Assembly (NCBI RefSeq): GCF_000701685.1
Contig: NZ_JNJO01000005.1
Location: 62,001 to 126,000, forward strand
Direction of reading: 5' to 3'
Source of the DNA: Gemella sanguinis ATCC 700632
GTDB lineage: Bacteria > Bacillota > Bacilli > Staphylococcales > Gemellaceae
DNA length: 64,000 nucleotides
Every line of letters begins with the position of its first letter. Position 1 is the first letter of the stretch. The notes beneath the pieces are model-generated. The model searched no databases. It was not told where the DNA came from and saw only the letters and a program-made list of their open reading frames with translations. A program made the position numbers and the translations under genes. Positions 42,683-44,044 of the stretch are shown one piece after another.

Positions 42683-44044
42683 TTAGAATAGTAATTTATC
42701 TGCTCCACCAAGTTTATAGTCTAAAGCAGCCATAGCAAGTACGTTAATGAAGTGCCATGGACGGTCAAATTCCGGTTGGAAGAAGATATCAGCAAGTGCT
42801 AATTGTTCTAGAGTCCATTCAGCTGAAATTGCTATTGATAAAGCTGCAATAGCGCTAGAAATATCATGTTTAGACATAAATTGAGCACCTAAAATTCTGT
42901 GAGTATCTTCATCGAAGTAGATTTTCATATGAACAAGATTGTTTTCTTTTCTCATAAAATCAGGGTAAATGCGTTCTTCTACATATTTAGAAGCAACTTT
43001 ACCATCATAAAGTCCAACACCATTTTGTGATAATCCAGTACTTACAAATTTGTAATCAAAGAATGATAATGCAGAAGTACCATTTACTGCAGGCATTTTA
43101 GTTTTTTGTCCCATTGCATTTAATGCAGCAACTACACCTTGACGACGTGCTAATGTTGCCAATGCAATTGGTAACTCTCCACGAGTTGGTGCATAAGGAA
43201 GAATTGTAGAATCTCCTCCAGCATAAACATCTTTAGCTGATGTTTCTAAGTATTCGTTAGTTACAACGAAACCACGTTCAGTCATCTCTAATTCTTCACT
43301 TAACCAAGAAGCATCTGGACGAACACCAACAGAAACAATAACAGTATCGGCTTCGTATTCACCTTTGTCTGTAACAACTGAAGTTACTTTTCCATTTTCA
43401 CCTTTAAATGAAAGAACTTTTTCCCCACCACGAACTTTAAGGTTATGTTTAGCACCTTCTTCAGTTAAAATATCTGTAAGTTCTTGGTCTAAGTATGTGT
43501 TTAATATTCTTGGAGCAAAGTCAACGATAGTTACATCAATTCCTTGTTTTGCATAAGATTCAGCAACTTCAAGTCCAATATAACCCCCACCAACGACTAC
43601 CGCTTTTTTACTGTTTTGCATACAATCGTAAACAGCTTGTGTGTCTTCTGGTCCACGGAAAGTGTGAATATTTTCTAATTCGATTCCTTCAAATGGAGGC
43701 TTTACAGCAACTCCTCCAGGACTTAATAATAATTTATCATATGACTGTTTTTCTTCACCAGCAGGTGTTTTTACTACAACATATTTTTCTTCTGTATTTA
43801 ATTTAATAACATCACTATTACAGTGGATGTTAATCCCTTGAGAACGGTAAGATTCTTCATTAGCAAAGTGTAGTTCAGATAATGCTTTAGATGTCCCATC
43901 TAAATATGATTGACTACCTCATCCCATAAATGAAGCCCCAGCGCCTCTTTCATATAAATGAATTTCAGCATTAGGTTCATTTTTTAAAATAGTTTGAACT
44001 GCTTCGTAACCGAAGTGAGAAGTTCCAACAACTACGTATTTCAT
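42683..44044 (-). CDS. npx: NADH peroxidase/oxidase with in-frame UGA at redox Cys42 (candidate selenoprotein)
   Basis: This 453-codon frame starts at the ATG at 44044, preceded by AGGAGG. It is the NADH peroxidase/NADH oxidase flavoprotein family: FAD motif VVVGTSHFGYEAV with the active-site His10, NAD motif VVVGGGYIGLEVAESY (about 149-164), VYAGGDST for FAD, and a dimerisation domain ending LADIFFQPEFDRPWHFIN, closer to NADH peroxidase than oxidase. The only interruption is UGA at 43921-43919, codon 42, in the context ASFMG-UGA-GSQSYLDG. This aligns with the catalytic Cys42 (family SFLSCGMQLYLEG), which cycles through a sulfenic acid. Everything downstream is intact. A SECIS-like hairpin follows. 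An internal ATG at 43621 (codon 142) has no ribosome binding site and would lose the FAD domain. Read as Sec it would be a full-length selenoflavoenzyme; otherwise it is a nonsense-mutated gene. Confidence 0.85.
43870..43921 (-). promoter_or_regulatory. SECIS-like stem-loop downstream of the UGA codon
   Basis: On the minus strand, UUUAGAUG (43904-43897) pairs perfectly with CAUCUAAA (43893-43886) around the loop GGA. The loop starts 22 nt after the UGA (43921-43919). An outer helix pairs GUAGU (43917-43913) with ACUAC (43874-43870), and a UCA/UGA pairing is possible between them. Bacterial SECIS elements lie just inside the coding region after the UGA, with a small apical loop carrying G in its first positions at roughly this distance. 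The fit is by eye, without energy calculation. Confidence 0.6.

Follow-up and report, generated by a model that had tools for sequence, protein, structure and literature searches.

What does a lone in-frame UGA signify when it falls on the catalytic residue of an enzyme gene? The question is raised by a 64,000-nucleotide stretch of the genome of Gemella sanguinis ATCC 700632 (contig NZ_JNJO01000005.1, positions 62,001 to 126,000; hereafter the window), a member of a genus of common oral commensals. An initial annotation, made from the sequence alone, had described a 453-codon minus-strand frame in this window with one UGA at codon 42, and had proposed that the UGA specifies selenocysteine (Sec) in an NADH peroxidase (Npx). 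Npx is a classic enzyme in which a sulfenic acid at Cys42 cycles with flavin adenine dinucleotide (FAD) and NADH, and the stabilized Cys-sulfenic acid has been the subject of decades of structural study. Our analyses argue that the Gemella gene very probably encodes a selenoprotein NADH peroxidase that is translated at full length through UGA42, with a probability of roughly 0.94. The computed support covers the reading frame, selection, the Sec machinery, an RNA element, the position of the UGA and the predicted fold.

Results

The UGA occupies the redox-active position of an Npx-type enzyme

The frame (44044..42683, minus strand) contains one internal TGA only, codon 42 of 453 (43921..43919), just as described. 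Alignment to the Enterococcus faecalis Npx places this codon on the redox-active Cys42 and confirms the retention of His10 that the initial annotation had noted; Glu14 and the equivalent of Npx Arg303 are likewise kept. Pfam profiles detect the FAD/NAD domain and the dimerization domain, consistent with the claim that the domains are intact on either side of the UGA. In a phmmer search against solved structures, E. faecalis NADH peroxidase entries were the best matches (E 2.7e-108, residues 1–441), and the AlphaFold2 model (mean predicted local distance difference test score, pLDDT, 92) is closest to the Npx crystal structures (template modelling (TM) score 0.95), followed by NADH oxidases (0.93). 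The position of Cys42 itself is taken by a Sec codon, and we class the protein as a Sec variant that would work like Npx.

UGA also serves as an ordinary stop in this DNA, as had been argued. Four of the 63 mechanically called open reading frames (ORFs) of at least 90 amino acids in the window terminate in TGA, so a global reassignment of UGA is not needed. The remaining TGA read-through frames in the window mostly overlap ordinary ORFs.

Conservation and purifying selection extend across the UGA

A search of 40 relatives turned up the frame, interrupted in each case by a single TGA, in eight members of the genus (G. sanguinis included) and in one further genome of the family, G009. The Gemella genomes with the TGA include G. 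haemolysans, G. cuniculi and Gemella sp. GH3. The nine orthologs of this Gemella group are 78–100% identical, and every one has TGA at codon 42, so that nine separate assemblies agree. Elsewhere, in about 65 other homologs, the codon is TGT or TGC and never TGG; every aligned homolog that lacks the TGA thus carries Cys, and none Trp.

Comparison of the Gemella-group orthologs with the window gene yielded ratios of nonsynonymous to synonymous substitution (dN/dS) of 0.04–0.14 for the segment following the TGA, at dS values of 0.66–1.45. The ratio is low for the preceding segment too, demonstrating purifying selection on both sides of the TGA; the segment beyond the apparent stop is therefore selected as protein. 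Because the TGA is common to 9/9 orthologs and the downstream dN/dS is low, a chance TGA is excluded, in keeping with the earlier argument that a random nonsense mutation was unlikely to strike this codon.

G. sanguinis possesses a complete Sec insertion system

The selenocysteine interpretation called for a search for selA, selB, selD and tRNA-Sec, and the complete set is present in the G. sanguinis genome. Profile searches identified selA (598 bits), selB (345 bits) and selD (379 bits), together with a tRNA-Sec scoring 68.7 bits, above the gathering score; ARAGORN likewise predicts a tRNA-SeC with anticodon tca (UCA). All four genes lie inside 14 kb of a single contig. The sel cluster is ordered selD (Sec-containing), yedF, a gene for a 91-residue protein, selB, a cysteine desulfurase-family gene (TIGR01977) and selA.

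Several observations on this cluster stand apart from the Npx gene. Between selB and selA lies the TIGR01977 desulfurase gene, and the 91-residue protein has no NCBIfam match (L132:4966-11680); yedF, the 91-residue protein and the desulfurase are candidates for a selenium-delivery set. The selD gene itself (L132:10655-11680) carries one in-frame TGA, at MIVCGGUNSK (codon 14), which is kept in 11 genomes and is followed downstream by a hairpin with a GGG/GGA-type loop, making Gemella SelD a candidate selenoprotein. In the selD alignment (L108–L118), synonymous conservation peaks at about codons +19 to +25 after the UGA, past the expected position of a bacterial Sec insertion sequence (bSECIS) hairpin. 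Two relatives, G006 and G014, possess selA, selB, selD and tRNA-Sec, and a Sec-type NADH peroxidase was not found in either (the G014 assembly is 66% complete); the family is therefore likely to have further selenoproteins besides SelD.

A constrained hairpin follows the UGA

A conserved hairpin, the other expected companion of a Sec codon, is present downstream of UGA42. It begins 14 nt after the UGA and reads UUUAGAUG-GGA-CAUCUAAA, with 22 nt between the UGA and the loop. Published bSECIS geometry comprises a loop of 3–9 nt with a G in the first two positions, a stem of 4–16 bp and a spacing of 16–37 nt (PMC13188914); the Gemella hairpin, with its 22 nt spacing, 8 bp stem and GGA loop, fits these ranges. 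The stem is identical in nine genomes, the single variant being one loop base in L007. Across codons +5 to +12, which form the hairpin arms, the mean synonymous pair difference is 0.03, compared with 0.37 for the gene as a whole; it is the lowest value in any of the 284 windows along the gene. The folding energy varies with the length of sequence considered (−10.8 kcal/mol for 55 nt with the stem held; −6.9 kcal/mol for 47 nt folded freely); the bSECIS model sets its cut-off at a minimum free energy of ≤ −7.5 kcal/mol (PMC13188914).

A candidate Sec-type Npx recurs in other Bacilli

The TGA that is common to Gemella species also occurs in two further lineages. A metagenome-assembled genome (MAG) labelled Atopococcus tabaci encodes a protein of about 50% identity (L044) with TGA at codon 42, a hairpin that likewise has a GGA loop in a different register, and selA and tRNA-Sec elsewhere in the genome. 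This L044 protein (L044:3001-4365) is without the Arg aligned to Npx Arg303 and sits on a long branch in the tree; its function may therefore have changed. Sampling of 400 Bacilli genomes added one further TGA form, 43% identical, in G073, which also has a tRNA-Sec. An identical selA-profile match, at identical coordinates, in G458 and in the genome of L077 suggests that G073 belongs to the family of Vagococcus fluvialis. In this family, Vagococcaceae, seven of 29 genomes have a close Npx ortholog; codon 42 is TGA in all seven, and all seven have selA. Another 399 genomes around Fonticella yielded no new TGA form; the one exception was a genome whose match was identical to that of G073. In total, selA is present in 17/17 TGA genomes, versus 2/15 of the Cys-type genomes checked in the same clade, a count that is not a significance test because the genomes are related.

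Two other observations concern further homologs. Aerococcus MAGs G049 and G051 (L041, L043) have selA and tRNA-Sec, yet retain Cys42 in this enzyme. Homologs are also encoded on plasmids from Listeria (54% identical) and from lactic acid bacteria; many of these plasmids are predicted to be mobilizable, which may allow the gene family to spread horizontally.

In a tree of 64–65 sequences, on which the Sec/Cys state of residue 42 was mapped as a label, the Sec forms and E. faecalis Npx constitute one clade apart from the NADH oxidases (99% support in the Shimodaira–Hasegawa-like approximate likelihood ratio test, SH-aLRT). The label requires at least three changes, forced by well-supported branches, with gains and losses not distinguished; a topology constrained to unite the Sec forms in a single clade was rejected (approximately unbiased test, p-AU 2e-4). 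The flanking residues follow the label. Met40 with Gly or Ala at 41 is found in 14/14 Sec rows, and among the 51 Cys rows Ser41 occurs in 45 and Leu40 in 48; Globicatella, the sister of Gemella, reads M-S-C. Statistical support for a Met-Gly signature was sought and dropped, and we treat it as a pattern, since a sign test on only three independent pairs cannot reach significance. We give even odds to the wider proposal that Sec-type Npx has arisen or been lost recurrently in Bacilli, with at least three Cys/Sec changes, each pairing Met40-Gly/Ala41 in the Sec form with Ser41, usually preceded by Leu40, in the Cys relatives; this would suggest a re-shaped turn or altered proton handling, and a selenenic-acid chemistry new to the family.

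Features of the locus

Table 1. Elements of the candidate Sec-containing NADH peroxidase locus, in window coordinates
Feature	Coordinates	Strand	Remarks
Sec-containing NADH peroxidase candidate (Npx-type FAD/NAD pyridine nucleotide-disulfide oxidoreductase)	42683..44044	minus	453 residues with UGA42 read through
In-frame UGA, codon 42, aligned with redox-active Cys42 of E. faecalis Npx	43919..43921	minus	sequence and alignment
Candidate bSECIS upper stem-loop UUUAGAUG-GGA-CAUCUAAA	43886..43904	minus	8 bp, 3-nt loop, G first; synonymously frozen in 9 genomes
Shine-Dalgarno AGGAGGA ahead of ATG	44051..44057	minus	direct sequence reading
His10 codon, active-site residue, conserved	44015..44017	minus	alignment
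Arg300 codon, at the Npx Arg303 position (V in most NADH oxidase-type relatives)	43145..43147	minus	alignment
Intrinsic terminator-like hairpin between the Npx gene and the convergent gene	42642..42675	not assigned	

Discussion

Weighing the readings of UGA42

Were the gene a pseudogene, or the UGA a sequencing error, conversion of the Cys42 codon to a stop would leave a 41-residue peptide and possibly an internal restart. TGA is one base away from TGC and TGT, and an internal ATG at 43621 starts a 312-residue ORF; against this stand the recurrence of the TGA in nine separate assemblies, the dN/dS of 0.04–0.14 after it and low values before it, and its reappearance at codon 42 in two further lineages whose genomes encode Sec machinery, and we regard this explanation as scarcely credible. 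It is also very improbable that the UGA is decoded as Trp or Cys through suppression or near-cognate read-through. UGA suppression is known in some bacteria, but the Cys-only pattern of the homologs disfavours such read-through, the genome has a full Sec system, a hairpin under constraint follows the codon, and TGA stops other ORFs in the window. Some results do weigh against a Sec-containing Npx. The genus genome G006 is without the Npx gene; the hairpin taken alone is modestly unusual, since 4.4% of synonymous shuffles produce a stem of 8 bp and 17% match its folding energy; and most Vagococcaceae orthologs fit the generic bSECIS model poorly, with a weak or absent hairpin.

A different question is whether the selenoprotein is a peroxidase. 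It could instead be a water-forming NADH oxidase or a coenzyme A (CoA)- or persulfide-disulfide reductase, an assignment that we consider unlikely. The fold is common to the water-forming NADH oxidase LbNOX (TM 0.93) and to CoA-disulfide reductase (CoADR), and the top NCBIfam match is NOXase_Strep, the water-forming NADH oxidase model NF046103, but its score of 361 bits falls below the curated cut-off of 600; the CoA-disulfide reductase model TIGR03385 scores 307 bits against a cut-off of 579. The protein groups with E. faecalis Npx in the tree, it keeps Arg303 and Glu14, positions at which V303 and A14 predominate in the NOX-type rows, and Npx is its best match by structure and by sequence.

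A proposed mechanism

For the Sec-containing Npx favoured here, we infer actual Sec insertion, H2O2 as the substrate and selenium chemistry at the active site. SelB, Sec-tRNA(UCA) and the downstream hairpin would let the ribosome insert Sec at UGA42, and translation would then continue as far as the stop codon at 42683. Beside FAD and His10, the selenolate of residue 42 would reduce H2O2 to water and become a selenenic acid, which NADH would restore via FAD; this cycle is modelled on the known mechanism of the E. faecalis enzyme, selenium taking the part of sulfur. For an organism exposed to peroxide, the likely benefit of Sec would be quicker turnover and an enzyme that resists over-oxidation.

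Relation to known systems

The E. faecalis Npx/Npr (PDB 1JOA/1NPX) resembles the Gemella protein in length, fold, His10, Glu14, position 42, Arg303 and tree clade, and differs in having Leu40-Ser41-Cys42 where Gemella has Met40-Gly41-Sec42. LbNOX (5ER0) and Streptococcus pyogenes Nox (2BC0) share the fold and the position of the redox Cys; unlike the Gemella protein, they belong to a separate clade, occur in the Cys form only in the rows aligned and have Val303 in most rows. Sec has been described within the superfamily, in an "NADH oxidase" of Geobacter metallireducens (PMC1794560) and in one ocean sequence (PMC2398784), and the Sec form is catalogued as a CoA-disulfide reductase with the motif UGxP (PMC13188914). 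Judged from the listed motif, the Geobacter protein (COG0446, WP_011365774.1; PMC1794560, PMC9312934, PMC13188914) appears to carry Sec where its homologs have the redox cysteine, which reads CGLP in the CoADR-like rows. It comes from a deltaproteobacterium and belongs to the CoADR branch, whereas the Gemella, Atopococcus-like and Vagococcaceae proteins belong to the Npx branch, with MGUG and no UGxP. This catalogued Sec in the sister branch, to which the initial annotation made no reference, lowers the novelty of our finding. In the open-access literature, which leaves subscription papers and supplements outside the search, no description of a Sec-containing Npx came to light, nor any paper on the use of Sec in Gemella or Vagococcus, and the reviews examined make no mention of NADH peroxidase. 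The Sec-type Npx thus appears new within a superfamily that already has Sec members, and is well supported at the sequence level.

Implications

The finding would make a classic enzyme one of the known Sec proteins, and its naturally occurring Cys and Sec forms can be compared directly; it also indicates Sec use in Gemella and Vagococcaceae. Standard gene-finding would miss the gene or call it truncated. The repeated Cys/Sec changes, with a common difference in the flanking residues, offer a testable case of what selenium needs of an active site; if the pattern is true, selenium at residue 42 may depend on a turn of altered shape at the active site or on another way of handling protons.
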